Shown: positions 1,579 through 44,043 of the stretch, in pieces | Numbering within the stretch: the stretch's first letter is position 1 | How the letters are laid out: each line of letters begins with the position of its first letter | DNA from: a virus | IMG/VR virus record: IMGVR_UViG_3300029826_000006 | Coordinates: 1-48,186 of that record | DNA: 48,186 nucleotides | Reading direction: 5' to 3' (one strand) | Notes under the pieces: model-generated | The model's database searches: none | What the model saw: only the letters and a program-made list of their open reading frames with translations | Told to the model about the DNA's origin: nothing | Position numbers and translations under genes: made by a program

Positions 1579-1598
1579 TTAATTTATTTAACGGACTT
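1579..1598. repeat. Dyad repeat, copy 1
   Basis: On the minus strand this reads AAGTCCGTTAAATAAATTAA. It fills the junction of the two convergent arms and encodes the last codons (KSVK, stop) of the minus-strand gene. It matches the copy at 25952 over at least 19 bases. Confidence 0.8.
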
Positions 1599-9237: not shown

Positions 9238-10506
9238 CTAACCTACAGCCGTATCAAGAAACGAGTATCCATGAATGTGTCCCTTGATCTTGATATAGTC
9301 AATTTCAAAGTATTCGTAAATCTCTGACTTCAGCCGGAACCTAAACTCAACACCGTAGCATCTTGGAAATGCCTTTCCATTTGGATTAACTAAAAACCAT
9401 CCTATCTGCTTAAAGTCATCTCTGTAACTTGTTCTATATTCAACTGACACGTAAAGACGCTGTGCTAAATTAGATCCTACTTCAATAGCATAAATGGTCT
9501 TAGGCTTCCTTGTTCCAAAATCATAGATGTCTGTGCACACTTCAAACACAGGTTCTGCAATAGCTATGTCACTTACGACTAACGTTCCACTTTCATCACT
9601 ATCAATTCCAGTTACATTAACTGGACCTTCGCCGAAGCTGCCAGACTCAAACTCATATATAAATCCATAGGTCCCATCACAGATATAAACAAGACTATTC
9701 TTCTTATCATATGACAATGTTATAGTTGTCATCAAGCTAAGATATTCTTCATATCCGAGCTTCTTCAATCCCTCACTCAGCAATACATATAAGTTGTCAG
9801 AGCTATCAACAAAGAAATGTTTTTTTGAGTCTCCAGCTATTGCTCCCTTGTTTTTGATTCCTAGTGGATGAACATTATCTAATCCGTATGAAATTCCACT
9901 TGGTATCATAGCACTAATACCACCAAACCCATATACGATAGCTAACTTACCTAACTTCTTAATCTCATACACAGCTCCAGGCCAATCCATAGGTCTGTAG
10001 CCAGCTACGTTTGTATTGTCTAATTCAAAATCTAACGAGCCGATCTTACTCCACCTAACAAATGCAGCTACTAACTGTGGAATCAACACAGAGTCAAATG
10101 ACGGAGTTATATAAATATATATTGGACTAGTTTCAATTACCTCTCCACTACACAGACTACCTTCTTGCGATAGAGTAATCTCAATAGGATCTAACACAAT
10201 TCCAAGATTGCTGTTACTTCCTTCTACACTAATTGTAATAACTAATGGACTAAGTTCCTTATACGTACTAAGTGCTGGATCAAATGAGATAGGTGTTGAA
10301 GTACTCCCGGTAAAGTAAAATGAAAACTCAATTTCAATAGGATCAAGTGTAATATCCGTATCAGGGCCAGCTGTAGTTGGTGCAAGAGTAGTTAGCGTAG
10401 TAGTAGGAGCTAATGTCGTTAACATAGTGGTAGGCGCTAACGTAGTTGAAGCAATTGTAGAAGGAGCTAGTGTTGTCGCTAAAGTCGTAGGCGCTAATGT
10501 AGTCAT
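9238..10506 (-). CDS. Tail-associated protein with N-terminal Thr-Ala-Pro repeats
   Basis: The first ~48 of 422 residues are pure mucin-like TTLAPTT/TTLATTLAPS repeats. Two related beta-rich segments follow (DPIEIEFSFYFTGS near 55 and DPIEITLSQEGS near 105), suggesting a duplicated small domain. The rest resembles beta-propeller-like virion proteins, with repeated strands such as LAIVYGFGGISAM and NLYVLLSEGLKKLG and a conserved-looking YGVEFRFRLKS near the end. No enzyme motif was recognised. It lies in the tail module between a small conserved virion protein and the GNAT-like protein. The N-terminal tract matches the one inside the 604-residue protein. Confidence 0.6.
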   Translation of the reverse strand: MTTLAPTTLATTLAPSTIASTTLAPTTMLTTLAPTTTLTTLAPTTAGPDTDITLDPIEIEFSFYFTGSTSTPISFDPALSTYKELSPLVITISVEGSNSNLGIVLDPIEITLSQEGSLCSGEVIETSPIYIYITPSFDSVLIPQLVAAFVRWSKIGSLDFELDNTNVAGYRPMDWPGAVYEIKKLGKLAIVYGFGGISAMIPSGISYGLDNVHPLGIKNKGAIAGDSKKHFFVDSSDNLYVLLSEGLKKLGYEEYLSLMTTITLSYDKKNSLVYICDGTYGFIYEFESGSFGEGPVNVTGIDSDESGTLVVSDIAIAEPVFEVCTDIYDFGTRKPKTIYAIEVGSNLAQRLYVSVEYRTSYRDDFKQIGWFLVNPNGKAFPRCYGVEFRFRLKSEIYEYFEIDYIKIKGHIHGYSFLDTAVG

Positions 10507-11011: not shown

Positions 11012-12430
11012 CTAACCTGACTGTATCATTAATGCTTCATATAATGCATCATTAGCTATAGGTAATCCTTTAACTGTCCATGTAGCTCCAGCATCCAAAG
11101 ACAACAACACAGCCAACTGAGAAGACCCAGCTATAGATGCACCACAAGTGGTAAATGCAAACATAGGTCCATCTGCAGCCAATGTAACATGTTTATACAA
11201 TGGATTAGGTTCGTAAAAAGTTGGATAATTACTATCTACATATGGATATAATACTCCTATTTTAACCCAACTCGCCCCAGCATTTGTAGTCCTCCAAATC
11301 TCTTTTTTTCTCACATGTGTAGTTTTATCATAGAAACAAGGAATATATACAACTGTACTTCCGTACGCAGCAATGACTGAGTACATAGTATAATCCCATG
11401 TCTCAAATATTGGATTAGATGTCCAAGTTGATCCACCATCATCTGAATAATGAAGATATGCCATATAGTTAGAAGACCCAGTAAATGTCTTCTCACTTGT
11501 TGCTACATATAGTCTATTACCTGATACACATGATGTCAAGTGACCTGTACTTATCTGAGATGGGTTAGTCACTACATGTGTAGACCAAGTTAATCCACCA
11601 TCAATAGACTTCTCAAATTTAAGCTTTACAATTCCAGCGCCTGACTTATAGAGATTATGAAATATGTATAGGTTATTTGATAAGTCATGCTCTATGTTTA
11701 TAGGATAATCTCCAATAAAGGAGTATCCAAAAGCAACATATATCTGTGTCCATGTACTTCCACCATTCAAAGACCTACTACACCATATATAATATGCTCC
11801 ATCATCAATAGTTCCATAAGCACAAAAAAGATTTCCGCTATTGTCTATAGTTAGTCTCCTCTCAAAATAAGGATAGTATATTCTACTATAAGGACCTCCA
11901 GGAGTATCTTGTCTAATTATATTTTTAGAAAGTGTAAGTCCTACAAGTTTAAATGCAGATGCATCTCTCAACCAATAAACCCCATCAAAAACTACATCAT
12001 TAGTACCTATGCAATAAGCTACTCCATTATTACATAATACTGACATAGCATAAATATTAGATGCTGCTCCTATTTCTGTATTCTGACCATAAGACAGTAC
12101 ATACATATCTAAATTAGCTGCTATAATTATACGACCACTAGATGATACAGCTGATATATAAATTACTCCATTTGCATAGTCTACAGCTACAGAATGAAAT
12201 AAATAAGCTCTTCCATATGTTATAGGTACTAATACCGTTGTTGAAGGTGAGTCAAACCAGTATCCACACGGATTATGTTTGTTAAGTGATGCTGGATCAT
12301 TAGTCCAATAAGGATTATTGATATACCCTCGCTTAGCAATCTGTTTAGAAAAATTCCACTGTTCAGGCCCTTGTGACCCAGTATATTTCCATGGAGCAGG
12401 TCCGAGACCTTTATCATCAATCCAGCTCAT
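11012..12430 (-). CDS. BNR/Asp-box beta-propeller fibre or receptor-binding protein
   Basis: This 472-residue protein has at least five Asp-box motifs (S-x-D/N-x-G-x-S/T-W): SLNGGSTW near residue 220, SIDGGLTW near 278, SDDGGSTW near 332, TTNAGASW near 383 and SLDAGATW near 446. Their ~50-residue spacing fits the blades of a sialidase-like beta-propeller. The N-terminus (MSWIDDKGLGPAPWKYTG) looks like a virion-attachment segment. No sialidase arginine triad or FRIP motif was seen, so binding is likelier than cleavage. By position it may contact the host surface. The DNA is distinctly more A+T-rich than its neighbours, suggesting acquisition or fast exchange, as is common for receptor-binding genes. 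It overlaps the next upstream gene by 4 bases. Confidence 0.7.
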   Translation of the reverse strand: MSWIDDKGLGPAPWKYTGSQGPEQWNFSKQIAKRGYINNPYWTNDPASLNKHNPCGYWFDSPSTTVLVPITYGRAYLFHSVAVDYANGVIYISAVSSSGRIIIAANLDMYVLSYGQNTEIGAASNIYAMSVLCNNGVAYCIGTNDVVFDGVYWLRDASAFKLVGLTLSKNIIRQDTPGGPYSRIYYPYFERRLTIDNSGNLFCAYGTIDDGAYYIWCSRSLNGGSTWTQIYVAFGYSFIGDYPINIEHDLSNNLYIFHNLYKSGAGIVKLKFEKSIDGGLTWSTHVVTNPSQISTGHLTSCVSGNRLYVATSEKTFTGSSNYMAYLHYSDDGGSTWTSNPIFETWDYTMYSVIAAYGSTVVYIPCFYDKTTHVRKKEIWRTTNAGASWVKIGVLYPYVDSNYPTFYEPNPLYKHVTLAADGPMFAFTTCGASIAGSSQLAVLLSLDAGATWTVKGLPIANDALYEALMIQSG

Positions 12431-12915
12431 ATAGCACCTAAAGGAACACCAATTATAGCTTGTCCATTATAGTTGCAAGCAGCAGTTGCTAGCGGATGAT
12501 CTGTGTCAAGAGCATATGTTCCAGACGAGTCTCTAATTACATTAACTACTCCATTACTCAAGAATATATATTCGTAGAAGTCAAGAACTGTCCATTTCTG
12601 CCCAGCTGCAACAGGACCTATCATGTGAGTAAGTGTTCCATTATACTCATAAATGTCAGTCTCTCCACATATGATAGTTACATTAGTTAACATGAATAAC
12701 TGAGGGTATGGAAAGCCGTCTGTGATGGTAGCAGTGTTTACTCGATCATCGTTTAAGTTATCAATTACTTGTAGCACTCCATCTTTGCCTACAGCGCCAG
12801 AGCATTCGATTAGGTATTCAGAGTTCCTTGGTACCCGCTTACTCGGCCGCAGTCCTCTGACAAGTGACTCTGACTGGATCGTATGAGTAAATGTTCCATC
12901 TCTTAATACAGTCAT
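12427..12915 (-). CDS. Tail module protein, beta-rich, unknown family
   Basis: This 162-residue protein has a conserved-looking start (FTHTIQSESLVRGLRPSKRV, then PRNSEYLIECSGAVGKDGVL) that I recognise from podovirus-type tail modules without a named function. The remainder alternates short strands with aromatic residues. It overlaps both neighbours by 4 bases (ATGA type), so it is co-translated with the 111-residue protein and the BNR fibre. It may be a tail stopper or fibre-anchoring subunit, but that is position-based inference. Confidence 0.5.
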   Translation of the reverse strand: MTVLRDGTFTHTIQSESLVRGLRPSKRVPRNSEYLIECSGAVGKDGVLQVIDNLNDDRVNTATITDGFPYPQLFMLTNVTIICGETDIYEYNGTLTHMIGPVAAGQKWTVLDFYEYIFLSNGVVNVIRDSSGTYALDTDHPLATAACNYNGQAIIGVPLGAI

Positions 12916-13247
12916 AACAATGCTCCATTAGCATCATTAAGGTTCGGCTTCTTAACTTCAGTCATGTTAAGTGAGTTAACCATCTTGATACGTCTTCTAA
13001 TCTCAGGTACAGCTTTTCTCATAATGCTTTCAAGACTCTGCGAAACATCAGATCCGTCTACTTCTTCAACCACAGACATAACCACCTGTTTGTGGTCTTT
13101 AAACTCAGGATAGTCACTGTAAAACTTCTTATTAATCTTAATCATCGCAGCATGATTGGCCATAAGGTTTCCCACAATCTCAGGCATCTTTAACATTATC
13201 CGTTCAATGACTTCGTTAATCAAGAGTTCTTTTTCTTCAGGTGTCAT
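12912..13247 (-). CDS. Small helical protein of the tail module
   Basis: This 111-residue protein is highly charged and helical. It begins with TPEEKELLINEVIERIMLKM and has a conserved-looking core, NKKFYSDYPEFKDHKQVVMS, and a basic helix, AVPEIRRRIKMVNSL. I recognise it as a type often found next to head-tail adaptors, without known function. The ATG is preceded by GGAGGCAAGA. It lies between the adaptor and the 162-residue tail protein. Confidence 0.5.
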   Translation of the reverse strand: MTPEEKELLINEVIERIMLKMPEIVGNLMANHAAMIKINKKFYSDYPEFKDHKQVVMSVVEEVDGSDVSQSLESIMRKAVPEIRRRIKMVNSLNMTEVKKPNLNDANGALL

Positions 13248-13303
13248 TCTTGCCTCCTGGCAAGCTGATCCATATCAGCGTGATGTTGATCTGTTAATAG
13301 TTA

Positions 13304-14020
13304 TCATCCGTCCATCTGATCGATCTCTGAGATTTCTTCCTCAACAAGATCCATTCCAAGTTGAACAATGCGCTCTTTGATAGCGTCGTACCAAGCATCT
13401 GATTTGGATTTGTTCTGGTTAAATATTTCAAGTTCATACAACGTAGCCATTACAAGCAAGGTTGGATAGTTGACAGTCCAATAGTTTTCATCGTCCTCAG
13501 CTGATAGAGTGGCTGAGTAGAACAGACCTCTGATCTCAACCATCAAGTTTTCATCAGTCGGAGGAGCAACCACTATAGCATTATTATCATGCTCAGGATC
13601 AATAGTTACATCAATGTAAGTCATGTAAGATGAGAAGCTTGATAAGTTAGCATTCTCAGGAATTTTCCTAGTAATGACAGGTGAATAATATGTAACATCG
13701 CCGCTCTCTACATCGTCGTTAGAGCTAAGATATTCAACTAAGATGTCCTGCACAGGTTTCTTCTTCAACTGCCATCTGTTAGTTGTGCTAGCTACCCATA
13801 CTTCTTTAACAGCTCTACAAATTGGAAAAGTGACTCTGAACCCATTAGCTAGCAATGAAGCAAAGTGAATCCCATAAGACTTTTGAATCTCAGTTCTACG
13901 ATCAAGGAACTTTGAAGCTGAGTTTATAAGTGTATCTATGACTTCAGCAGGATCATCGTCTGCTAGGTCATATCGACCAGACATTTGTCTGAATAGTGCT
14001 TTTACCTGAGCAAAGTTCAT
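13304..14020 (-). CDS. Head-tail adaptor (connector) protein
   Basis: This 238-residue protein starts with a helix (MNFAQVKALFRQMSGRYDL) followed by a Leu-rich helix ending FLDRRTEIQKSYGIHF, typical of the helical adaptor proteins that bind below the portal. A beta-sandwich-like middle (YMTYIDVTIDPEHDNNAIVV) precedes a C-terminal helix (YPTLLVMATLYELEIFNQNK, then DAWYDAIKERIVQLGMDL). It is the first gene after the capsid gene and its terminator-like hairpin. GGAG, contributed by dyad copy 3, lies 6 bases before the ATG. Confidence 0.6.
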   Translation of the reverse strand: MNFAQVKALFRQMSGRYDLADDDPAEVIDTLINSASKFLDRRTEIQKSYGIHFASLLANGFRVTFPICRAVKEVWVASTTNRWQLKKKPVQDILVEYLSSNDDVESGDVTYYSPVITRKIPENANLSSFSSYMTYIDVTIDPEHDNNAIVVAPPTDENLMVEIRGLFYSATLSAEDDENYWTVNYPTLLVMATLYELEIFNQNKSKSDAWYDAIKERIVQLGMDLVEEEISEIDQMDG

Positions 14021-15436: not shown

Positions 15437-15835
15437 TCACTGCGGAGCTGCAGTAGTCGGAGCAGCTGTAGTAGCAGCCACAGTAGTCCCAAGGAAGGTC
15501 AGTGTTGAAGCTACAAACCAACACAGACCATCAGAATAGGCAAGGAGCTTATCACACTTGCCATTGAGTGTGATGTCTCCAGGCCAGCATTCTGAATCAT
15601 CTTTATCAGCAACAGTAATAGTGTTAACAGCATCAGCGTTTCGGCAGACGATAGAATAGAATCTGCCTTTAGCTTCAGCTACCGGAGGGAGATACACTGT
15701 GAACGGACCAGTGTCTCCATCAGCACTCGGACGGACTACATAATCACGAGTAGTCATTTGATAGTTAGCTACAGGGTTGACATACTTATCAACCACAACC
15801 TTGTCATGCTGCGCACCACGATCCTCAAGAGCCAT
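15437..15835 (-). CDS. Capsid decoration protein candidate with Thr-Ala-Pro tail
   Basis: This 132-residue protein is beta-rich. It has a DTGPFTVYLPPVAEAKGRFY segment and an ITVADKDDSECWPGD loop, a pattern I know from small phage virion proteins beside the capsid gene. The last 17 residues (TVAATTAAPTTAAPQ) are mucin-like. A position between scaffold and capsid is usual for decoration (head-stabilising) proteins. If so, the Thr-rich tail would project from the capsid surface. Confidence 0.6.
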   Translation of the reverse strand: MALEDRGAQHDKVVVDKYVNPVANYQMTTRDYVVRPSADGDTGPFTVYLPPVAEAKGRFYSIVCRNADAVNTITVADKDDSECWPGDITLNGKCDKLLAYSDGLCWFVASTLTFLGTTVAATTAAPTTAAPQ

Positions 15836-15845
15836 TTGCTACCTC

Positions 15846-16661
15846 CTAGGAGTTAAGAGCCGTTTCCATGGCGTCTAATTCGCCCTGAAAATGGTCAGTT
15901 TTAGTTTGTTGTGGCCTCTGTTGTCGCCCCTTCTGCTGCAGTCGTGGAGGTTTATCAGTGTCTTTAGGCTGAGTTTTCTGAGGCGCTTGAATGTTTAGTC
16001 GTTTCCTAGTTTCAGTTGCTACCTCCTTCAGTAATTCCTCATGGTCCTTGCCAGGCTTCGCAAGTTCTTCATAGACAGTTTGGACAACTTTCTTAAACGG
16101 CTCAAGGTCTTTGTTGTCTGTGTAGAACTGCTCAGTACGTTTTTTAACGGCTGTAATGACTTCGATATTGTCTTGGATTAACTTAGGCATAGACTCATAA
16201 CGAGAAGAGATTTCTGCCCTGGCCCTGTCAACAGCTTTTTTATATATTGAATTTAATACTTTGTTAAACTCGTCTGGGTCTCTAGTAACTTCATCAATAT
16301 CAAGACCACCGACAAAGTCTTCGTCAGCTACTTCTTCAGGTACCTTAGGTTTAACTTCCGGCTCAGTGTCTTTTTTAGTGAGGAGAGCCCGCAACTCATC
16401 GAGCTCAGCCTTCATGGCGGCGAATGAAGACTCTGGGGATTGCTCATTGGAGGAAGTTGCAGGCTCTCCAACACCGTCCTCAGGAGCTGCAGTGACCGGG
16501 GCTGCAGTCCCTGGTGCTGAGGAGGAGGGTGCCTCAGTGGACGGTGCTTCAGACGAAGGCGCACTAGTTGCCACTACACCATCTTCAAGTGTTTCAGCAT
16601 CACCACTAATCAAGTTTTCCATCTCCTCAATTTCTTTACTCAGGTCTTCATTCATGCTCAT
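15846..16661 (-). CDS. Capsid scaffold protein with internal Ser/Thr-Ala-Pro tract
   Basis: This 271-residue, highly charged, helical protein lies between portal and capsid genes, where tailed phages encode the assembly scaffold. Residues about 33-62 are a Ser/Thr-Ala-Pro tract (SAPSSEAPSTEAPSSSAPGT). A coiled-coil-like helix (AAMKAELDELRALLTKKD) and long helices through residue 220 follow, then a basic Gln/Lys/Arg-rich tail (QQKGRQQRPQQTKTDHF) suited to binding capsid subunits. It has no protease domain. Its start overlaps the 97-residue gene by 14 bases. Confidence 0.7.
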   Translation of the reverse strand: MSMNEDLSKEIEEMENLISGDAETLEDGVVATSAPSSEAPSTEAPSSSAPGTAAPVTAAPEDGVGEPATSSNEQSPESSFAAMKAELDELRALLTKKDTEPEVKPKVPEEVADEDFVGGLDIDEVTRDPDEFNKVLNSIYKKAVDRARAEISSRYESMPKLIQDNIEVITAVKKRTEQFYTDNKDLEPFKKVVQTVYEELAKPGKDHEELLKEVATETRKRLNIQAPQKTQPKDTDKPPRLQQKGRQQRPQQTKTDHFQGELDAMETALNS

Positions 16662-18897: not shown

Positions 18898-19116
18898 TTA
18901 GTTTTTCAATATACCAGGAATACGAATAACTATATCAACTAGAATAAGAATAACTGAAACAAGGATTCCACCAAGTATAGTGTTTAACTTTCCCATTATA
19001 CCATTCATACGTATGTCCAGTTCTTTAAGTTTATCCCATTGGACTTTATTTTCACTCTTTAAATTATCTATGTCTTTTGTGCATCCACTATGTTCATGGC
19101 ACAATTCTGTGCTCAT
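18898..19116 (-). CDS. Small coiled-coil membrane protein, XhlA-like holin candidate
   Basis: This 72-residue protein has a short Cys/His-containing start (CHEHSGC), a charged coiled coil (DIDNLKSENKVQWDKLKELD, through residue 48), and one C-terminal transmembrane helix (TILGGILVSVILILVDIVI). The coiled-coil-then-membrane layout is that of XhlA-type proteins that help phage holins. It overlaps the terminase stop by 4 bases. The M15 endolysin is at 26385, so a split lysis set is possible; a purely structural membrane role cannot be excluded. Confidence 0.5.
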   Translation of the reverse strand: MSTELCHEHSGCTKDIDNLKSENKVQWDKLKELDIRMNGIMGKLNTILGGILVSVILILVDIVIRIPGILKN

Positions 19117-20654
19117 ACTATTCTCCAGTCCTCTACAGGCTGATCGTAGTTAAGTTCCTTAAACTCAGCTTCAATATCTTTTGGATCTTCAGCTGGGCTA
19201 AAATATCGCTCACCAAGTTCAAGCATCTCAATGATGTATGCAAGAGCATCCATTAAGTCCCATAGAGCAGAACGAGGAAACATTAGTAATTGTGCTTCGA
19301 GCTTTCTAACAGTGGCATTTGCTTTGTTGTGATAAATGTATCCACCACGGTAGTAAGGGACAAGTTCCTTGATTCGATCTTCTTTCTTCATCCCTCCGCG
19401 AGCCTTGAGCCATATGAGTTCGAAGAACTGTCCACGGCGGAACATCTCATTTTTAATAGGCTGCTTGATGAATTCGTTGAGTGAAGTTTCTTCGATACCT
19501 ATTACTTTTGCGTCTAGTCTTGTAGCCATTCCAAACATGGCGTTGTAGATTTCGTCTGGATAGAGTTTCTCACTAATAGCATCGCGGATGTAGAGGCGAG
19601 CACTTGATAAGTCGATACCAACACCTACGATGGCAGTCTCGGCAGAATGAATTTTGACTGTTTTCGCAGGATCCATAATAACAACTGTTTCAATACTATT
19701 GTTATGCTGAACTTCAACATCAAGAACATTTAAGTCATTTTCGTCTTTGCCAACGTCGTTAGGAACATTGTAATAGTGGAAGTATTCCTTCTGAAATGCA
19801 GCGTCTTTAGTTGAAATTGGTAGGTTTCGGAACTCACGAAAGAACACATCGGTTTGGCCAGCTTTAACATGCTCTTCCCATTCCCTTTCTATTTGTTCCT
19901 TAGATTTGAACTCAGGCGCAGTTGGATTAAAGTCATCGTCGCAGGCTTCGAGACGGATGCTTTCCCAGTCAGGTGAGTCTAAAAGCATTTGAAGAACAGA
20001 ATCTTCATGCTTTAAAGTGTCAATGTAGACAATTTTGTACTTGTCAGACATCTCACCTATTTGAGGAACGGCCTTGATAACATCTGCGTAGAGCCACTGT
20101 TTCCATCCCTTTCTAATCTCATCATTGTTGACTTTTTCAGGGTCTTCAAGATCATCTATAACAAACAATCCAGGCCGATCATTTTTAAAAAGAACTCCTC
20201 GTACTTGCTGGCCAGCACCGCGAGGCCATACAAGAGTATCATAAGCTACCCAAGCTTTCTTAGAGAAAACTTCATCGAATTCTACCTTTCCTACATCTCG
20301 ATATTTGAAGTCACCAAAGAAGTGCTTAATGGTTCTGTTTGTTACAAGCTCACGACGAAGGTTTTCAGTTTGCAGAGATGCTGCATCGTGAGATTTGTTG
20401 ATGTAGCAGACGAAGCCAGTATAGCGGAAGAGGATCCACCTGGCGATTAATGCAAGAGCGACAATGGAAGTCTTTCCCCACCCACGAGGTGCAGCGATGG
20501 CTACTTTGTTCGCAGGACCATCAATGAGCTTGAATATCTTCTCATGGACGCTTTCTGAAAATGGCAGAGTGAAGCGCTCAGGGAAGAAGGTCTTAGCCAT
20601 CATCCTTGTCGATGTAGCACATTGAGATAGTATTTCTCGGTCTATAGCATCCAT
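19113..20654 (-). CDS. terL: Terminase large subunit
   Basis: This 513-residue packaging ATPase-nuclease has Walker A APRGWGKTS at residues 55-63, a Walker B ending LFVIDDLED near 166, and the nuclease-domain aspartate in VVIMDPAKT near 325. The second nuclease carboxylates are likely in KVIGIEETS and the C-terminal LMDALAYIIEM helix. It cuts concatemeric DNA and drives it through the portal. The small subunit is far upstream at 26662, with glycan and mucin genes between them, an unusual separation. No Shine-Dalgarno site precedes the ATG; dyad copy 4 lies there instead. Confidence 0.9.
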   Translation of the reverse strand: MDAIDREILSQCATSTRMMAKTFFPERFTLPFSESVHEKIFKLIDGPANKVAIAAPRGWGKTSIVALALIARWILFRYTGFVCYINKSHDAASLQTENLRRELVTNRTIKHFFGDFKYRDVGKVEFDEVFSKKAWVAYDTLVWPRGAGQQVRGVLFKNDRPGLFVIDDLEDPEKVNNDEIRKGWKQWLYADVIKAVPQIGEMSDKYKIVYIDTLKHEDSVLQMLLDSPDWESIRLEACDDDFNPTAPEFKSKEQIEREWEEHVKAGQTDVFFREFRNLPISTKDAAFQKEYFHYYNVPNDVGKDENDLNVLDVEVQHNNSIETVVIMDPAKTVKIHSAETAIVGVGIDLSSARLYIRDAISEKLYPDEIYNAMFGMATRLDAKVIGIEETSLNEFIKQPIKNEMFRRGQFFELIWLKARGGMKKEDRIKELVPYYRGGYIYHNKANATVRKLEAQLLMFPRSALWDLMDALAYIIEMLELGERYFSPAEDPKDIEAEFKELNYDQPVEDWRIV

Positions 20655-20658
20655 GTTT

Positions 20659-20678
20659 GTTAATTAATTTAACGATCT
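20659..20678. repeat. Dyad repeat, copy 4
   Basis: GTTAATTAATTTAACGATCT lies immediately upstream of terL, starting just after the stop codon of the 107-residue gene. Confidence 0.8.
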
Positions 20679-21001
20679 CACGGAGGAGTCGTTGTTGGTG
20701 CTAAGGTTGTTAAGTAAAGTCTAAGTGGGCCAATAACTGATAGATCTACAACCTTTCCATGTGACCTAGTGACAGCACCAGTCATGGAAAATGCCTGAAG
20801 TTTCCACACTCCAGTTTGGTCTAAATCTACGTATGGATTAGTTGAGTACTCAACAACTTTGTTATTGGTTCCACAGATAGACGCAGGCCAAACTCCATTA
20901 GTTCCGTCTGGCTTTTTATACTTAATGTATACAGTTAGCCCTGTTAGCGTCTGACCTGTGTTAAGGAGCAGTTTAACTATGTCACTCGCAAAGACTGGCA
21001 T
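20678..21001 (-). CDS. Small virion-associated protein with Thr-Ala-Pro end
   Basis: This 107-residue protein is beta-rich (LTGLTVYIKYKKPDGTNGVW, then TGVWKLQAFSMTG) and ends in LTTLAPTTTPP. Short proteins of this form occur in tail or head modules as small immunoglobulin- or collar-like subunits. Its start overlaps the end of the 604-residue mucin-like gene by 20 bases and terL follows it. The shared terminal repeat suggests that it and its neighbour carry the same surface decoration. Confidence 0.5.
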   Translation of the reverse strand: MPVFASDIVKLLLNTGQTLTGLTVYIKYKKPDGTNGVWPASICGTNNKVVEYSTNPYVDLDQTGVWKLQAFSMTGAVTRSHGKVVDLSVIGPLRLYLTTLAPTTTPP

Positions 21002-22796
21002 CGATCTCTAGCTCCATAGTCATAGTTGAATAAAGTGTTACTTCGATAGTTATGATAGAGTCTTTTTCTATTTCTAGCTCAATTAGCGAATATCCAATGA
21101 TGCTACACACAGGATCCATTGGAGGAGCTGTGGTAGGAGCCAGAGTTGTTGGAGGTAAAGTAGTAGGTGAAGGAGTTGTTGGAGTAACCGTTGTTGGTAG
21201 AACTGTAGTCGGAGCAGCTGTAGTCGGTGGTAAGGTAGTAGGAGCAAGTGTAGTTGGAGACAGTGTTGTAGGTGATAAAGTTGTCGGTGCTAACGACGTT
21301 GGAGATAATGTTGTAGGAGCCTCAGTTGTAGGAGCGCTTGTGGTTGGGAGTGTAGTAGGTGCAAGAGTCGTCGGCTCTAGTGTTGTCGGAGCAATGGTAG
21401 TAGGTGGTAAGGTAGTGGGCGCTAGAGTCGTAGGAGCCAACGTGGTAGGTGCTAGTGTTGTTGGTGCACTTGTCGTTGGCAGAGTTGTTGGCGCTAGAGT
21501 GGTAGGTGGTAGAGTGGTCGGAGCTAAAGTTGTTGGCGGCAGAGTAGTTGGGGCCAATGTAGTAGGTGCGAGAGTCGTAGGTGCTAACGTAGTAGGAGCA
21601 GCGGTAGTTGGTTCAGGTTCTTCATCTCCCCAAGCGCCGAACTCAGGCTCATTCGCTACCAGTTTGCGGACTGCAACCCAATCAACATAAATGTATTGGT
21701 TCCCTATCGCGTAGGAGCCGTTCGAGTAATAATGAATGCCGAAATATCCGACAGACATCGATGATTCGTGAGAGTCAGAAAGTTCGAGCGCACCGTTTCG
21801 ATACTGTTTGTTTGCCCCACTCAAAAACTGATAGCTGCCCCGTATCCAGGTATCGTCTTCGAGGTCCGTATCATAAGTACTACCAGCTTTCGTTCCTATT
21901 TGGTTTCGCCAGTTTGTAGCTTCTGCCCCATACCAGAAATGAGCCGCCAAAAAATAATTAGAATCAGATTCATAGTATGCCTGACTCGTTTCATGTGCAG
22001 CGAGAGCCAGCACACACGAAACACCAGCGGAAGTGCTTCCGTTTGCATTGAGCTTTAAGCTGGCTTCAACGGCGCATGGGACATTTATCTGAGTTTTAGA
22101 ATCGAGTGCCGGACTCGTTCTCGCCGTAACATCAACTATAGTGAACTGCGCCTGACTGTCTGCAATAGCGAGCGTATCCTGATAGTTTGTATTGTTGTAC
22201 CATTTATCTGTGTCGAGAGAGCTACCCAAGAAATCGTCGAAAATAATGAATGCAGCGTCTCCGTCACTGACAGCGGATGCCCCTGCGTTCCCGTAGTACA
22301 TATAGAACGTTGTTGCATTGGTTCCTATAGAATCAAACTCAACCCAAATTGTGGCGGATGAACTATCAGCACCTTTTTCGATCCAATAATCGAGAAGCGT
22401 TTCACCATCAGAAGTCGTAAAGCGGATGTCGTCATAATCGGCTTCGCAGTTCGTGCCGACATAGACATCTGAGCCACTGTCTGATCCGGCACTGCGATGA
22501 ACAGTGATCTTAACCTGATAATTTATCAGACGAAGACTGTAACTTTCCCCTGAAGCATTCGCGCCAGGATAGTTCTCGGAAATCGTCAGCGATGTGTCGC
22601 TTGCAATGGCGCTAATCGTGTACCAATTACTGTCTGGGAGTTGAATCTGGTCTCCAGCCCCCCACTCGGTAAATACTGTACTTGTACCAGTGACAGTAGC
22701 AGATCCGTTCGTAACGGCAACAGTCCCAGCATCTGACCCCTGAGCAGTTAGAGGAAATGACTTTCTATAATCCCATCCAGTGAGCCAACCAGTCAT
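20982..22796 (-). CDS. DUF2341/LamG-like surface protein with long mucin-like Thr-Ala-Pro tract
   Basis: This 604-residue protein starts with the WDYRKSFPL entry strand of DUF2341, which resumes at residue ~92 (INYQVKITVHR) and continues through YVGTNCEADYDDIRFTTSDG to FYMYYGNAGAS. Residues ~17-90 are an inserted phage tail-type module (AVTNGSATVTGTSTVFTEWG). A concanavalin/LamG-like beta-sandwich follows (DDFLGSSLDTDKW, ~186-385). Residues ~397-557 are about thirty TTxAP/TTxPP repeats, then a 45-residue beta-rich end. The folded part is richer in G+C and CpG than neighbouring genes, a sign of transfer. The layout suggests a long stalk carrying a sugar-binding or structural head. It is encoded right after the glycosyltransferase genes. 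Confidence 0.7.
   Translation of the reverse strand: MTGWLTGWDYRKSFPLTAQGSDAGTVAVTNGSATVTGTSTVFTEWGAGDQIQLPDSNWYTISAIASDTSLTISENYPGANASGESYSLRLINYQVKITVHRSAGSDSGSDVYVGTNCEADYDDIRFTTSDGETLLDYWIEKGADSSSATIWVEFDSIGTNATTFYMYYGNAGASAVSDGDAAFIIFDDFLGSSLDTDKWYNNTNYQDTLAIADSQAQFTIVDVTARTSPALDSKTQINVPCAVEASLKLNANGSTSAGVSCVLALAAHETSQAYYESDSNYFLAAHFWYGAEATNWRNQIGTKAGSTYDTDLEDDTWIRGSYQFLSGANKQYRNGALELSDSHESSMSVGYFGIHYYSNGSYAIGNQYIYVDWVAVRKLVANEPEFGAWGDEEPEPTTAAPTTLAPTTLAPTTLAPTTLPPTTLAPTTLPPTTLAPTTLPTTSAPTTLAPTTLAPTTLAPTTLPPTTIAPTTLEPTTLAPTTLPTTSAPTTEAPTTLSPTSLAPTTLSPTTLSPTTLAPTTLPPTTAAPTTVLPTTVTPTTPSPTTLPPTTLAPTTAPPMDPVCSIIGYSLIELEIEKDSIITIEVTLYSTMTMELEIDASLCE
21121..21610 (-). repeat. Degenerate 15-bp repeats coding for TTLAP units
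   Basis: About thirty tandem 15-bp units encode the pentapeptide TTLAP and variants (TTLPP, TTSAP, TTEAP, TTVTP). Synonymous codons vary strongly between units while Thr-Thr and Pro stay fixed, which points to selection on the protein rather than recent DNA slippage. Confidence 0.9.
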
Positions 22797-22820
22797 ACAA
22801 TTACCTAGTGTAGATGAATA

Positions 22821-22841
22821 AGTCCGTTAAATTTTTAAACA
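22821..22841. repeat. Dyad repeat, copy 5 (degenerate)
   Basis: AGTCCGTTAAATTTTTAAAC. The left arm is intact and the right arm is weaker. It lies between the two-domain glycosyltransferase and the mucin-like gene. Confidence 0.65.
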
Positions 22842-22845
22842 TTCT

Positions 22846-24477
22846 TTACATTAACCTAAGATGAGCAAATCTTTTTTGCTTCTGCTCTGAGAGCTGATTC
22901 TGCTTTACATGTTGATGGTAAGATTTAATGTCTTCAGATTTAAATTCTTGTGTATTTTGTTCTATGTACTCATTTCCATTGATGAAGTGATCACCGATGT
23001 AGAGTCGATTGCTTCTATTATTTCCATGAACTACCATGTAAGCGTAGGAAGGAGGAACTGTGTAAATAGTGTTAAAGAACCTTCCCATTTTTAAATGGAG
23101 GTCTTCGTAAGGTGAGACTATAGGAGGTTCACGCTGGATTATTGATAAGAAGGGACTAACACGCTTTGGATTGTGTGGAGCGAAGAATCTGTAGAGTCGG
23201 CCATCAGGTGCCTGACCAGTGACTTGGTAGTTTATGAGAAAGCGTTTAGCAGGAACATTTTCGGCCATGTACTTCATGTGAGCGATCCAGCCTGGCGCTA
23301 CCCAGTCATCGTTGTCAAGCCTGGCCATGATAGTAGCTGTTGGGTGACCAGAGGAACGTGCAAGGTCTTCTGGGCACCCTGGATCGATTTCGTTTCCGTA
23401 GTTGTGAGATGTGTCTACTGACTCAGCCCATTTGGAAAGGTTATCTTCGATATAGATGAAGCGAGCATCAAGACCAGTCCAATCAAGAGATTGGATTAGT
23501 TTAGTAGTTTCATTATCTTTGTATGATACGAAGGTGTAGACAGTGAAATCTTTATCAGTTTGACGTTTTAAACTGTTGATAAAGTTATCCTGCATCATGT
23601 TTATTCGAGACTGGCTGAGAATGCCAAGAGCATCTTCGTCACCTAGTTGTTTGTAAATGGCACGAGTGAATACAAGAGTGTCACTTTGATGCTTTGGATC
23701 TTCGACATTTACAGATGGGCCAGGATAGGTCTCGCTACAGAATCCCCACTTTTCACGGAATCTTCTAACACCATCTAGGCGTATTGGGTTGCGGACTTTT
23801 TCACGCAGATAAGTGATATTTCGATGAGTCTTATCATTTATTGCTATGTAGCGCTTATCGCAAAGTGTACCTATTTTCCACCCAGCTTTGCGAATGTTCA
23901 TACACATGTCGAAGTCCCAGACACCAAGGTGGTAATTAGTGTCTATTACGTCAGGGATTATAGCAACTTCTTTTCGCATAAGAAGAGATGCAGCACCGAT
24001 GAGGTCTACGTCCATTATTCCTGTGTAGCTATGTCTTACAGGTATGCTTATTACCTTTGTGCCGTCGACTCTCCGATGCCATTTTAGGTAGTTATGTACA
24101 AGATCGATCATTCCATAAGATGCACCCTGCATCGAGTCCATGAACTTCAACATAGCATCGAGGCTACCAGGTTGAAAAGTCATATCGTTGTCTGTGAAGA
24201 AAATGTAAGGTGTGATAGCACTACGTTTTAGTAACTCGGCACGAGGCTTAGCTGCCCCATTGTTACCTTGAGTGAAAAATATGTCTCTGATCATGTAGCC
24301 AGACGTTGCATCTAAGATTGCCTGACGCTTTGCATTTGAAATATTTTCACATCCTTGGACCTGGAGACAGAGGTTGAGAGGCATCTTAGTTGTTCTAGGC
24401 AGACGTATGAGAGTTTCTATTAACTTATCTTCGAGCATCCAAGAGAGGATGCTTACAGTTATTCTAGCCTCTGCCAT
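22846..24477 (-). CDS. Bifunctional glycosyltransferase: two GT-A domains in tandem
   Basis: This 543-residue protein has two GT-A domains. The N-terminal GT2-like domain has a nucleotide/metal DND in FFTDNDMTFQPG at residues 96-98 and a likely acceptor region GVWDFDMCMNIRKAGW near 200. The second begins near residue 265 and has the ARLDNDDWVAPGW motif near 385, with the Asp-Asn-Asp-Asp form of rhamnosyltransferase-like GT-A proteins. Two domains suggest two successive sugar transfers. There is no membrane segment, so it acts in the cytoplasm. It overlaps the methyltransferase-like gene by 14 bases and precedes the mucin-like protein. Donor sugars are unknown. Confidence 0.75.
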   Translation of the reverse strand: MAEARITVSILSWMLEDKLIETLIRLPRTTKMPLNLCLQVQGCENISNAKRQAILDATSGYMIRDIFFTQGNNGAAKPRAELLKRSAITPYIFFTDNDMTFQPGSLDAMLKFMDSMQGASYGMIDLVHNYLKWHRRVDGTKVISIPVRHSYTGIMDVDLIGAASLLMRKEVAIIPDVIDTNYHLGVWDFDMCMNIRKAGWKIGTLCDKRYIAINDKTHRNITYLREKVRNPIRLDGVRRFREKWGFCSETYPGPSVNVEDPKHQSDTLVFTRAIYKQLGDEDALGILSQSRINMMQDNFINSLKRQTDKDFTVYTFVSYKDNETTKLIQSLDWTGLDARFIYIEDNLSKWAESVDTSHNYGNEIDPGCPEDLARSSGHPTATIMARLDNDDWVAPGWIAHMKYMAENVPAKRFLINYQVTGQAPDGRLYRFFAPHNPKRVSPFLSIIQREPPIVSPYEDLHLKMGRFFNTIYTVPPSYAYMVVHGNNRSNRLYIGDHFINGNEYIEQNTQEFKSEDIKSYHQHVKQNQLSEQKQKRFAHLRLM

Positions 24478-24964
24478 GATGAGTGTCCTCGAAGATAGCT
24501 AGAGTCGTAGATTGATTGTCTATACGAGACATGCCGTTGATGAGTGGTGAAAGGTTTGCCTTGATGCTTCGTTCGAAGTCATCGAGAAAGTAAAATCTTG
24601 CATGGTTGATGGCTGATTTCAATTGAGGAGCACGAGGAAGGATGCCGTCTATTAAAGCTATATCGAAGTTAGAAGAGATGTCTACTTTTTTGTTTGGAGA
24701 GTGGATGAAAGTAACTTTTGGTGAGCAGAGCTGCCTCACGAATTCAATGTACTCAGCGTTGGTTTCGTAAGAAACCACTGAAATACCGAGACTGTCGAAT
24801 AAGATAGTTGAAACACCTGAGCCAAATTCGAGGACTGATTTTAAAGAATGCTGATCAATGACTTGTTGGATCTGGTCCCAGCGCCTAGGACGAAGATAGC
24901 GTAGGTCGGGAGTCTTTGATCTCCATAAAGTGTAGATTTCTCTGCTATTCATTGCTCGTCCCAA
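24464..24964 (-). CDS. Class I SAM-dependent methyltransferase-like protein
   Basis: This 166-residue protein has a motif-I glycine loop, VLEFGSGVSTILF, at residues ~40-52, an acidic strand end (VVSYETNAEYIEF) for the SAM ribose, and FDIALIDGILPRAP as the motif-IV-like strand, followed by ARFYFLDDFER. It is short but complete for the Rossmann core. It is wedged between two glycosyltransferase genes with overlaps of 14 and 16 bases, so O-methylation of a transferred sugar is the simplest reading. The substrate is inferred from context only. Confidence 0.65.
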   Translation of the reverse strand: MGRAMNSREIYTLWRSKTPDLRYLRPRRWDQIQQVIDQHSLKSVLEFGSGVSTILFDSLGISVVSYETNAEYIEFVRQLCSPKVTFIHSPNKKVDISSNFDIALIDGILPRAPQLKSAINHARFYFLDDFERSIKANLSPLINGMSRIDNQSTTLAIFEDTHHGRG

Positions 24965-25947
24965 GGTTTATTTGATAGAAGTTGTTCAAATGTCATGACC
25001 TTGTGTGCATCAAGCCAGGCTTTTTCATCTTTTCCAAATTGCTTAGCGCGCTCCCACCACTCAGGGATATTGATGTAGCGACCGAAGCGCTCTTTAATTG
25101 TTGCTTCATTACGCTTCATCATGTCTTCGCCACCCAAAACATAGCAAGAGACTAGAAAACCAACTGCGTGTGGGCCGACTCCGCTGTCTGACCAGAGGCG
25201 GTATTTGTAACCGTCTCCGACTTTCCCGACTTGTGCTGAGTCTTTTTCTCCAGTTATAGTGTCTATCTTTGGAAACGGCCCGATGTGGATTCCTGGCGAA
25301 GTCGGAACTGCCCAATTCTCGTATCCGAGTAGCCATGGCTTGATCCCTATGTGCATGTCTCCGCCGCCCCAGGAAAGGTGGTGCTGGGAGAGAGCACCAT
25401 AACCGTTGAGGTTGTCGAGGAACCAAGAGCGACGACAGATCCAGGGCATTCCTTTCCAGGTGATTTTCTTTTCATAGTTGTAAGCGCTGCCCCAGGGACC
25501 TAGTTCATTTCTTGTCATGTCCCGGTCGTGACGAGCTCGTGATTCGTGCTGATGGCACCAAGAGATAGGAGCGTGTGCGAAGCCAAGCTTTGGATCATCC
25601 TTGTGGCGGTCCATGAAGTTTACAAGATCAAGGATCATATCTCGGCCGCAGAGCATGTGGGAGTCGAGACAGAGGATGTAGTCTCCGGAGGAATTCTTAG
25701 CGGCAGTTTCACGTGCAGTGAAGAGGCATGGGAAAGACTGGCGAAAAATTTTTACTTTTCCGTCACGGCAGTAGCCAGATGGAATAGCACCTTTGATGAG
25801 TTTGTAAGTCTCATTGTCAGAGTTGTCACAGATGATTACTTCGCCAGAGTCAGGGCCGAGTGGTTTGAGTTCCTCGAGAGCTGATCGGACTGTGACAGAG
25901 AGCATTGCTACATCGTTGCGATTGGAGATGATTACTGATATTTTCAT
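24949..25947 (-). CDS. GT-A glycosyltransferase with polypeptide GalNAc-transferase-like motifs
   Basis: This 332-residue protein starts with the GT-A nucleotide-binding strand (MKISVIISNRND). It has the metal-binding D-x-H motif in ILCLDSHMLCGRD (D95, H97), a WGGGD segment at residues 193-197 in LSWGGGDMHIGIKPW, and a late histidine in SPGIHIGPFP (H221). The order DSH, MP...RRSWF, WGGxD/E, W-x2-G, His is that of the polypeptide GalNAc-transferase (GT27) catalytic domain, with related bacterial GT2 enzymes. No lectin domain or signal anchor is present. It leads a three-gene island upstream of a Thr/Pro-rich protein. Transfer of HexNAc to Thr or Ser is a hypothesis; activity on another acceptor is possible. 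Confidence 0.7.
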   Translation of the reverse strand: MKISVIISNRNDVAMLSVTVRSALEELKPLGPDSGEVIICDNSDNETYKLIKGAIPSGYCRDGKVKIFRQSFPCLFTARETAAKNSSGDYILCLDSHMLCGRDMILDLVNFMDRHKDDPKLGFAHAPISWCHQHESRARHDRDMTRNELGPWGSAYNYEKKITWKGMPWICRRSWFLDNLNGYGALSQHHLSWGGGDMHIGIKPWLLGYENWAVPTSPGIHIGPFPKIDTITGEKDSAQVGKVGDGYKYRLWSDSGVGPHAVGFLVSCYVLGGEDMMKRNEATIKERFGRYINIPEWWERAKQFGKDEKAWLDAHKVMTFEQLLSNKPWDEQ

Positions 25948-26384: not shown

Positions 26385-26675
26385 TTACTCGCCCCAAGAG
26401 TAATGGTTGCCGTCTCTGAAACGTCCGCCCCAAGTTCCGCCTATCGATTCCCAGTATTCTCCAAGTGTTTGATGATCTTTTGTTGACGGCAGGTATTTGC
26501 CATCTTTGAACAAGTTAAGATCAATGGCTAGGCGCTTGTAGTGGAAGGAACCTTCTTTGTGTCCATCATGAGCCCATGCGTCGCCGAAGGTTAGTTCGTA
26601 ACCTAAGCTGTATGCGTAAGTGATTAGGTCAGCTACTTTACGAACGAAGACAGATTGTTGATTACGAAGGCTCAT
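26385..26675 (-). CDS. M15-family peptidase endolysin (L-Ala-D-Glu/D-Ala peptidase type)
   Basis: This 96-residue enzyme has the zinc-site pattern of M15C peptidases: S43-x-H45 with A50-x-D52 (GSFHYKRLAIDLNLF) and the distal H91 in DGNHYSWGE. Such endolysins cut peptidoglycan peptide bridges to lyse the host. I chose the ATG at 26675 because GGAG lies 7 bases upstream; a TTG at 26693 would add six residues but lacks a ribosome site. The start overlaps the small-terminase gene by 14 bases. There is no signal peptide, so a holin is needed; the coiled-coil membrane protein at 18898 is a candidate. Confidence 0.8.
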   Translation of the reverse strand: MSLRNQQSVFVRKVADLITYAYSLGYELTFGDAWAHDGHKEGSFHYKRLAIDLNLFKDGKYLPSTKDHQTLGEYWESIGGTWGGRFRDGNHYSWGE

Positions 26676-27237
26676 TGGAGTTCTCCACGTCAATAGTGAT
26701 GCCAGTTGCTTTGGCTTCTCGAAGACCTCGATTGCGGAATGAAGCGAGCTCGTCCGCGGTCATGACTGTGGAGATTGATTGGGATTGGATACGGGTCGGA
26801 GCACGAAGTCCACTGATGTTGTTGAGGAAGTCAGAGGCGAAGTTACCTTTGTCCTTTAGGCCGAGTTCACCTGATTCGTCGTCGAAGATTTCGTGGTAAG
26901 TGCTAAGTGCTTTGTCAGTGAGAACGCGAATTTTTTCTGAAATTTTTTTCGTCTCGTCGTCACGACACTTGCGGATTTCGGCAAGTTTACGCATGCCGAG
27001 TTCGGAATTAAGCGTGTTTGAGACTGTCTGAGGATGGATATGAAGAATGTCAGCGATTTCAGTTTGCTTAAATCCACGAGCGGCGAGGTTAACTATTTCA
27101 TGATTCCGCTGCCAAAGATTCTTGATGTTAGGCGAGTTCTCACGATCATTACGACGATTGTCGACTTCGCGACTGTCAAAGCCGTAAAGGTTTTGCCTGA
27201 GTACTGAGACTGGTAAGGTGTTCTCGTTTTCGTCCAT
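26662..27237 (-). CDS. Terminase small subunit-like DNA-binding protein
   Basis: This 191-residue protein has a helix-turn-helix at residues ~50-80 (NLAARGFKQTEIADILHIHP, then QTVSNTL) followed by a long helical region (RKCRDDETKKISEKIRVLTD) for oligomerisation and a low-complexity C-terminus. Phage small terminases have this layout. It is the first gene of the packaging/virion arm. The only in-frame start is the ATG at 27237, where there is no Shine-Dalgarno site and a promoter would begin transcription almost at the ATG, so a leaderless mRNA is likely. A transcription regulator is the alternative reading. Confidence 0.65.
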   Translation of the reverse strand: MDENENTLPVSVLRQNLYGFDSREVDNRRNDRENSPNIKNLWQRNHEIVNLAARGFKQTEIADILHIHPQTVSNTLNSELGMRKLAEIRKCRDDETKKISEKIRVLTDKALSTYHEIFDDESGELGLKDKGNFASDFLNNISGLRAPTRIQSQSISTVMTADELASFRNRGLREAKATGITIDVENSNEPS

Positions 27238-42272: not shown

Positions 42273-42352
42273 GCGATTCAGACGTTATATCATTGATTTC
42301 AATAGTGATATGTTTTATTGCTATGGTAATCTCATCAGGAGGTAGTAGATGA
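42269..42352 (+). CDS. 27-residue membrane peptide
   Basis: ATGA overlap with the deaminase stop and with the next start. The peptide is MSDSDVISLISIVICFIAMV followed by ISSGGSR; the 3' end encodes the AGGAGG of the SQD1-like gene. It might act only as a coupling leader. Confidence 0.4.
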   Translation: MSDSDVISLISIVICFIAMVISSGGSR

Positions 42353-43584
42353 AAATTATAATTCTTGGAATAGACGGCTATATTGGATTTCCACTTGCTA
42401 TCAAACTCATGCGTGAAGGACATACAATCTTAGGTGTTGATAACTTAAGTCGGAGGGCTAGAGTAAACAGCGTTGGAGGTAACTCCATCACACCTATTGA
42501 ATCACCTATGATGCGTGATGCTGAGTTATCTAAACAATTCAGTGGACTATTCTTTCGCCGAGCTAGGGTGTCTCTCGGAGAAGACGATCCTAATTACATC
42601 CTAAGGATCCTTGATGACTTCCAGCCTGCTACAATAGTACACCTTGGTGAACAACCATCTGCACCTTGGTCCATGATTAGCCCCTACCAAGCAGCTGAGA
42701 CACAGATAGGTAATGTCATAGGTACGCTTCATGTTCTTTGGGCTATGCACTCTGCATGTCCTGATGCTCATTTGATTAAGCTTGGGACAATGGGTGAGTA
42801 TGGTACACCTGACTGTGATATACCTGAAGGAAAAGTTCCAGAATGGTGCATAAAAGAATATGAGTCTGAAGACTATCCACCAAGTAATACTATGTGGAGT
42901 AGACATGGAGATACAAATAAGGATGATTATAGATACCTATGTCCTATGTTCAGTCTCCTCTTCCCTCGTCAGCCAGGTTCCTTCTACCACATCTCCAAAG
43001 TCCACGATACTTACAACGTTGAGTTTGCCTGTCGCAACTGGGGACTACGTTCCACTGACATTATGCAAGGAGTGCTCTTCGGCTTGAACAATGAAGAAAA
43101 TCCACGCTTACTCACTCGCTTTGATTACGATGAGTATTTCGGAACAGTAATTAACCGCTTCTGTGCCCAGGCTCTCATTGGACATCCTCTTACAGTCTAC
43201 GGCAAAGGCAATCAGACTCGTGGCTATCTCACTCTCAAAGATGCTTTACAATGCCTCACTATTGCAATAGATAACCCACCCAAACCTGGCGAATACCGCA
43301 CCTGGAATCAATTCGAAAGCCTTCATTCAGTAAATGACCTTGCTGGTATGGTTCAAGACATCGCCAGAAAAAATAACTATGACTGCTCTACTAATCACAT
43401 CCCTAATCCACGTAAGGAAGCTGAAGATCATTACTACAACCCAACTGTCAAAACACTCTTTGACCTAGGCTTCGAACCAGATCGTGATATCTATGGTAAT
43501 ATCGAACTGTTGTTTCATCAACTTATCCCATTCAAAAGCCGAATCAGTTCTGCAGCAATAATGCCTAAGACAAATTGGAGGTGA
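42349..43584 (+). CDS. UDP-sulfoquinovose synthase homologue (SQD1-type)
   Basis: This 411-residue short-chain dehydrogenase/epimerase resembles SQD1, which makes UDP-sulfoquinovose from UDP-glucose and sulfite, using NAD. Visible features are GIDGYIG (7-13) for NAD, LGEQPSAPWSMI near 99-110, KLGTMGEYGTP with T147 and E150, YHISK with Y213 and K217, and YGKGNQTRGYLTLKDALQC. The end, NPRKEAEDHYYN and IMPKTNW, also matches SQD1. An insert of about 25 residues (near 165-205) precedes YHISK. It is unusual for phages. Its product could be a donor for the glycosyltransferases or act on host sulfolipid. Confidence 0.8.
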   Translation: MKIIILGIDGYIGFPLAIKLMREGHTILGVDNLSRRARVNSVGGNSITPIESPMMRDAELSKQFSGLFFRRARVSLGEDDPNYILRILDDFQPATIVHLGEQPSAPWSMISPYQAAETQIGNVIGTLHVLWAMHSACPDAHLIKLGTMGEYGTPDCDIPEGKVPEWCIKEYESEDYPPSNTMWSRHGDTNKDDYRYLCPMFSLLFPRQPGSFYHISKVHDTYNVEFACRNWGLRSTDIMQGVLFGLNNEENPRLLTRFDYDEYFGTVINRFCAQALIGHPLTVYGKGNQTRGYLTLKDALQCLTIAIDNPPKPGEYRTWNQFESLHSVNDLAGMVQDIARKNNYDCSTNHIPNPRKEAEDHYYNPTVKTLFDLGFEPDRDIYGNIELLFHQLIPFKSRISSAAIMPKTNWR

Positions 43585-43841: not shown

Positions 43842-44043
43842 TCTTGAAGACCTTAATTACAAATCAATAGTTGATATGGACACAGATGATGCAATAGAGC
43901 TTTTGCGGCAGATCCGACTCGGCCGCCGTATTCCTTCTAAACCTACAAAGCAAGCAACAGTTCGTCAATCTCGCAAGTCAGTTCCTGCTGTTTCCTCAGA
44001 CCAAGCTGCAGAACTATTAAAAATTCTTAGTGGAGGCAACTAA
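43834..44043 (+). CDS. Small unknown protein before the ParB-methyltransferase
   Basis: The 69-residue form starts at ATG 43834 after GAGAGGAGG. It has an acidic helix (MDTDDAIELLRQIRLGRRIP) and a basic, flexible middle (KPTKQATVRQSRKSVPA). The stop overlaps the next start by one base. It might bind DNA or the methyltransferase. Confidence 0.5.
   Translation: MADLEDLNYKSIVDMDTDDAIELLRQIRLGRRIPSKPTKQATVRQSRKSVPAVSSDQAAELLKILSGGN

Follow-up and report, generated by a model that had tools for sequence, protein, structure and literature searches.

The window analysed here is the whole of a single uncultured tailed-phage record of 48,186 bases (IMGVR_UViG_3300029826_000006). It encodes a glycosyltransferase, GT1, and we propose, with a probability of roughly 0.8, that the phage encodes a protein O-glycosylation system of its own, in which GT1 acts on TTx[A/P]P tracts of late proteins with a donor supplied by an SQD1-like enzyme. 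The phage probably sugar-coats its own particles. The proposal draws on the fold and motifs of GT1, on a repeat that is conserved at the level of the protein, and on the finding that GT1, the SQD1-like gene and the candidate acceptor tails tend to occur, or to be missing, together among related phages. A sequence-only reading of this DNA had suggested that the phage builds its own glycosylated stalks by means of a three-gene island. The GT27-like fold and the co-occurrence of GT1 with TTx[A/P]P sequences speak for that suggestion; the island as a unit and GalNAc as the sugar are not supported, and the chemistry itself is putative.

GT1 resembles polypeptide GalNAc-transferases in fold and motifs

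GT1 matches the Pfam family PF00535 (7.7e-14) and has homologues at 35 viral loci, with 43-100% identity. None was found among phage isolates; none was found in cellular genomes either, so no host can be assigned by way of a prophage. Residues D95, H97, W193 and H221 are invariant in an alignment of 26 sequences, in which the DSH, WGGGD and late-His motifs show little or no variation. GalNAc-T2 binds its metal through Asp224, His226 and His359 and has in Trp331 a residue that is key to catalysis (PMC4432651). To these correspond D95, H97, H221 and W193 of GT1, a matching that rests on motif order and spacing together with Foldseek; the distance from the Trp to the late His is 28 residues in both enzymes (W193-H221 and W331-H359). 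The motif order of polypeptide GalNAc-transferases that had been read from the sequence is confirmed, with metal ligands, Trp and spacing all retained.

The AlphaFold2 model of GT1 has a predicted local distance difference test score (pLDDT) of 86.9, a predicted template modelling score (pTM) of 0.88 and a helical C-terminus. When this model was compared with the PDB using Foldseek, ranks 1-42 were all GT27 polypeptide GalNAc-transferases (best E 2.4e-13; template modelling score for the query, TMq, 0.59-0.66), and the next matches were TarS at rank 43 and TarP at rank 49 (E about 1e-10, TMq about 0.5). The comparison with GT27 and GT2 structures that had been suggested as a check thus places GT27 ahead of the polysaccharide-synthesising enzymes.

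Candidate acceptor tracts accompany GT1

Our comparison set was drawn from the same phage family, selected by terminase, and consisted of 21 records with GT1 and 14 without, all of them metagenomic; it covers part of the terminase relatives in IMG/VR, which number more than 300. The density of TTx[A/P]P in late-strand proteins had a median of 0.99 per 1000 aa in the GT1-positive records and of 0 in the GT1-negative ones (p 1.6e-7). The motif was at shuffle level in the GT1-negative records, and every GT1-positive record exceeded its own shuffles, some only slightly.

D132, the small conserved product of a gene that lies between the scaffold-like and major capsid genes, just upstream of the latter, has orthologues in phages of both kinds. 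The copies from GT1-positive phages end in tails such as TTLAPTTAAPTTAAP. An automated count found the tail in 21 of 26 GT1-positive and 1 of 14 GT1-negative copies (p 8e-6). Read by eye, with two copies cut by contig ends excluded, a TTxAP tail was present in 23/24 distinct GT1-positive and 0/14 GT1-negative orthologues. The GT1-negative orthologues, among them those in G013, G015, G026 and G027, have, in place of the tail, either an abrupt end or a C-terminal extension of about 180-300 residues.

The long repeat lies in the REP protein, which is encoded next to the island. REP consists of a tail-fibre-like N-terminal segment and a DUF2341 domain, followed by a T/P/A/L tract of 166 residues that holds 66 T, 41 P and 31 TTx-P units, in good agreement with the thirty or so Thr-Thr-x-Ala/Pro-Pro units first noticed. 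All 29 of the 29 five-residue units compared differ in DNA. In the T, T and P codons of the repeat, positions 1-2 vary little or not at all, and third positions reach 1.7-1.85 of 2 bits. Because all the units differ in DNA and their third codon positions are almost free, we conclude that this is a real repeat kept by selection on the protein and not the outcome of slippage or of recent DNA duplication.

Taken over the family, the most consistent acceptor candidate is the C-terminal tail of D132, and the pairing with GT1 extends beyond the long REP repeat. The expectation that enzyme and TTxAP repeats should co-occur across phages is borne out by motif density, by the D132 tails and by the tree described below. 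The pairing of enzyme and substrate had been put forward in a form that holds in part: GT1 does track TTx[A/P]P tracts, but the D132 tail, and not the long repeat, is the best acceptor candidate.

These results bear on the idea that GT1 makes or alters a polysaccharide of the host surface, in the manner of receptor masking by GtrB- or TarP-like enzymes, and that the T/P tracts are plain flexible linkers. The generic nature of the Pfam GT2 domain, a weak GtrB match in PHROG and the position of TarS and TarP next in the fold ranking all agree with it. However, GT27 outranks every polysaccharide enzyme in that ranking, and plain linkers would have no reason to track an enzyme of the cell wall, whereas the tail and the motif density do vary together with GT1; we consider this account distinctly improbable. 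Decoration of phage DNA against restriction is further still from what was found. Phage glycosyltransferases often modify DNA, and a dCMP deaminase and a DNA methylase are encoded in the window, but the window annotation shows no enzyme for hydroxymethyl-pyrimidines, the fold of GT1 is that of a protein transferase, and GT1 tracks protein tails and not DNA-metabolism genes, so that we give this explanation very little credence.

In a tree built from the large terminase subunit (TerL), portal and major capsid proteins, GT1-positive and GT1-negative phages interleave, and at least six changes in GT1 are required. Tail states were assigned to the tree by hand from the by-eye reading of D132. Among the independent GT1 contrasts 6/6 agree for the tail and a mean of 5.7/6 for the SQD1-like gene, with none in the opposite direction. 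An ecological explanation would hold that GT1, the SQD1-like gene and T/P tails are each acquired separately by phages that share a type of host, with GT1 directed at another protein or at a glycan only. It is helped by the metagenomic origin of all of the records, by there being only six independent contrasts, and by the scarcity of motifs in some GT1-positive phages, for example G009 and G011; the interleaving on the tree and the fact that the tail changes within one orthologous protein count against it, and we regard it as unlikely.

The SQD1-like gene and the donor sugar

We asked which gene families track GT1 in an unbiased all-against-all family screen. After GT1 itself the most closely linked was the SQD1-like family, present in 18/21 GT1-positive and 0/14 GT1-negative records (p 2.9e-7); the small protein S107 ranked after it (10/21 against 0/14, p 0.0022), and the families ranked lower were core genes with counts reduced by fragments. 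The SQD1-like gene lies about 17 kb from GT1 on the other strand, in the early arm. Its site is syntenic in relatives, and eight GT1-negative records hold both flanking genes without it. The converse search found no same-family record that lacked GT1 while having both the TerS-TerL interval intact and an SQD1-like gene: of the same-family records with the SQD1-like gene and without GT1, G042, G043 and G062 are cut off before the GT1 interval and G044 and G048 do not have that interval, while G041 and G045 are fragments without marker genes and the remaining such records are other phages.

The encoded protein is homologous over its full length to Arabidopsis SQD1 (PDB 1qrr, E 7.6e-99) and keeps the catalytic Thr/Tyr/Lys triad. 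It scores 448 bits against the UDP-sulfoquinovose synthase equivalog NF041015, under the cut-off of 575, and Pro replaces the Arg of the EQRSAP motif in every GT1-linked copy examined. In Agl3 that Arg (R101) is essential, and Ala at the same place abolishes activity (PMC4388408). We rejected the gene as a certain UDP-sulfoquinovose synthase on account of this Arg-to-Pro change. Pro at this position is the rule in these phages, and it is also widespread among bacteria and archaea. Given the score below the cut-off and the Arg-to-Pro change in a form common elsewhere, we leave the assignment wide: the product may be UDP-sulfoquinovose or a relative of it. A broad cellular SQD1-like subfamily with Pro for the essential Arg accounted for 54/81 matches (L360-L439), including examples from Anaerolineae and Desulfobacterota.

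GalNAc, the sugar first proposed, is not supported because the linked nucleotide-sugar gene is this SQD1-like synthase on the other arm. The sole earlier phage report that we found of a putative UDP-sulfoquinovose synthase concerns a Cariaco Mu-like virus (PMC7785012). By terminase the closest named genome is that of Desulfofustis phage LS06-2018-MD01 (46% identity over 99%), in which tblastn found neither GT1 nor a D132 orthologue nor a homologue of the SQD1-like gene. The name Desulfofustis points to a sulfate-reducing host, in which sulfite would be available; this is only a hint.

Layout of the locus and its optional genes

The order GT1, MT, GT3, REP on the minus strand agrees with the arrangement first read from the sequence, and the open reading frames of the window place the genes accordingly (Table 1). 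The ends of GT1, MT and GT3 overlap, and all four genes sit between the TerS-like gene and the large terminase gene. GT1 occupies this interval in nearly all relatives that have it. MT homologues occur in few GT1-positive loci, and GT3-like genes are found both with GT1 and without it (L053, L054 and L083 being loci of the latter kind). Since GT3-like genes are also present in GT1-negative phages and MT in few relatives, both are optional extras, and the island as a single three-gene unit is not supported. The structural model of GT3 was unusable (AlphaFold2 pLDDT 42).

Table 1. Positions of the features of the window discussed in the text
Feature	Positions	Strand	Description
GT1	24949..25947	-	soluble GT-A glycosyltransferase, GT27-like fold, 332 aa; proposed initiating protein O-glycosyltransferase
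MT	24464..24964	-	small methyltransferase-like protein; weak Methyltransf_31 match only (PF13847, E 0.065); optional island gene
GT3	22846..24477	-	two GT-A-like domains, PF00535 in N half and PF11316 (rhamnosyltransferase-like) in C half; optional island gene
REP	20982..22796	-	tail-fibre-like/DUF2341 protein with mucin-like TTx[A/P]P stalk, 604 aa
REP TTx[A/P]P array	21117..21614	-	residues 395-560; unit-level DNA comparison
S107	20678..21001	-	small protein adjoining REP; C-terminal end LTTLAPTTTPP
D132	15437..15835	-	between scaffold-like and major capsid genes; tail TTVAATTAAPTTAAPQ at 15440-15487
Scaffold-like protein	15846..16661	-	N-terminal tract beginning TSAPSSEAPSTEAP at 16482-16568
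Late protein	9238..10506	-	N-terminal TTLAPTT array at 10363-10503
SQD1-like nucleotide-sugar synthase	42349..43584	+	short-chain dehydrogenase/reductase (SDR); PDB 1qrr match; proposed donor-sugar enzyme
TerS-like gene	26662..27237	-	upstream flank of GT1 interval
TerL	19113..20654	-	terminase large subunit, phrog_38 5.1e-62; downstream flank of GT1 interval

Other arrangements were seen in relatives. In a divergent clade (L197, in G010, 11916-13383) TerS and GT1 are separated by the genes of an SDR sugar epimerase (PF01370) and of a methyltransferase, and this epimerase family is present in 7/21 GT1-positive and 0/14 GT1-negative records. In G022 (L082, 7702-11339) the immediate neighbour of a divergent GT1 paralogue, downstream of TerL, is a protein of 827 aa that has a long, mucin-like tract of poly-Thr. 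Elsewhere in the window, positions 44043-45350 encode an N6/N4 DNA methylase to which a ParB N-terminal domain is fused, a protein conserved across the phage family, and positions 1584-6689 encode a late protein of 1701 aa that probably lies inside the virion or is ejected from it, with weak PHROG matches only. An Rfam scan of the window gave no match.

A proposed route to a glycosylated particle

We envisage that GT1, as a cytoplasmic enzyme expressed late, would transfer the first sugar onto Thr/Ser of the TTx[A/P]P tracts, with a nucleotide-sugar from the SQD1-like enzyme as the most likely donor. The targets would be late proteins of the virion or of its assembly: the D132 tails as the most regular acceptors, stalk tracts such as that of REP, and perhaps the N-terminus of the scaffold-like protein, with some phages adding long stalks of tail-fibre-like proteins. 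The optional genes of the island (GT3 and MT, or elsewhere the epimerase) may extend, cap or methylate the glycan. The resulting particle would carry a sugar brush, which might protect it against proteases or factors of the host, or help it to adhere.

A number of observations weigh against this proposal. The sequence similarity of GT1 to GT27 is weak and confined to the N half (E 4e-4); the C half found no match among PDB sequences, which is why residues were matched by motif order, spacing and Foldseek; and a template modelling score of about 0.6 is a match at the level of the fold. At 332 aa and with no lectin match in Pfam, GT1 does not have the lectin domain of GT27. Because of this absence and the weak similarity we liken GT1 to GT27 by fold and motifs only: on the model it would work like a GT27 enzyme, and we claim no formal membership of the family. 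G022, with its divergent GT1, is without the D132 tail and is the sole exception in the by-eye count, and three GT1-positive records (G008, G017 and G022) do not have the SQD1-like gene. The sign test on the tree gives p 0.03, limited by the six independent pairs. The TTx[A/P]P motif is also found in a scaffold-like protein, and the place of D132 and REP in the virion is presumed from gene order.

A stronger version of the proposal is a complete mucin-type coat system, with a GT27-like initiator, acceptor tails dedicated to the purpose on a capsid-side protein and on stalk proteins, and a synthase of the phage's own whose product would be an unusual and possibly sulfonated donor sugar. We offer it tentatively, as doubtful on present evidence; if true, the particle would bear a charged mucin-like layer laid down by an initiating enzyme that resembles the animal mucin one.

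Comparison with known systems

Few phages are known to glycosylate their virions, and little is understood of how the acceptor sites are selected. The co-variation described here names an acceptor, a transferase and a likely donor enzyme, so that enzyme, peptide and sugar become directly testable. If the proposal is true, the logic of mucin-type O-glycosylation extends to bacterial viruses, and GT1 is a new GT27-like enzyme that does its work with no lectin domain.

GT1 shares with CAZy family GT27 the GT-A fold, the DxH, WGG and late-His motifs at the same spacing and an acceptor proposed to be rich in Thr and Pro; it differs from that family in having no lectin domain, in its weak sequence similarity and in not being eukaryotic. 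The SQD1-like protein resembles SQD1 and Agl3 in its full-length homology and in the conserved T/Y/K triad and His/Met, but the EQRSAP Arg, essential in Agl3, is Pro in all GT1-linked copies, and its score falls under the NCBIfam cut-off.

The mycobacteriophages Che8 (gp110), Corndog (gp38) and Myrna glycosylate virion proteins with glycosyltransferases of their own (Freeman et al. 2023, as described in PMC12363180 and PMC12619734). According to the same two accounts the glycans reportedly lie at the C-termini of capsid and tail-tube subunits and shield the particle from antibodies. Here too a phage glycosyltransferase can be tied, in this case by co-variation, to tracts of structural proteins that are candidate acceptors. 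The system proposed here is set apart from those of the mycobacteriophages, as they have been described, by its GT27-like fold, its mucin-like TTx[A/P]P tracts, its linked nucleotide-sugar synthase and its phage family. Glycosylation of phage virions is thus already known in itself, and what we describe is, as far as can be tested, the same kind of process with a different type of enzyme, a mucin-like acceptor code and a linked donor gene.

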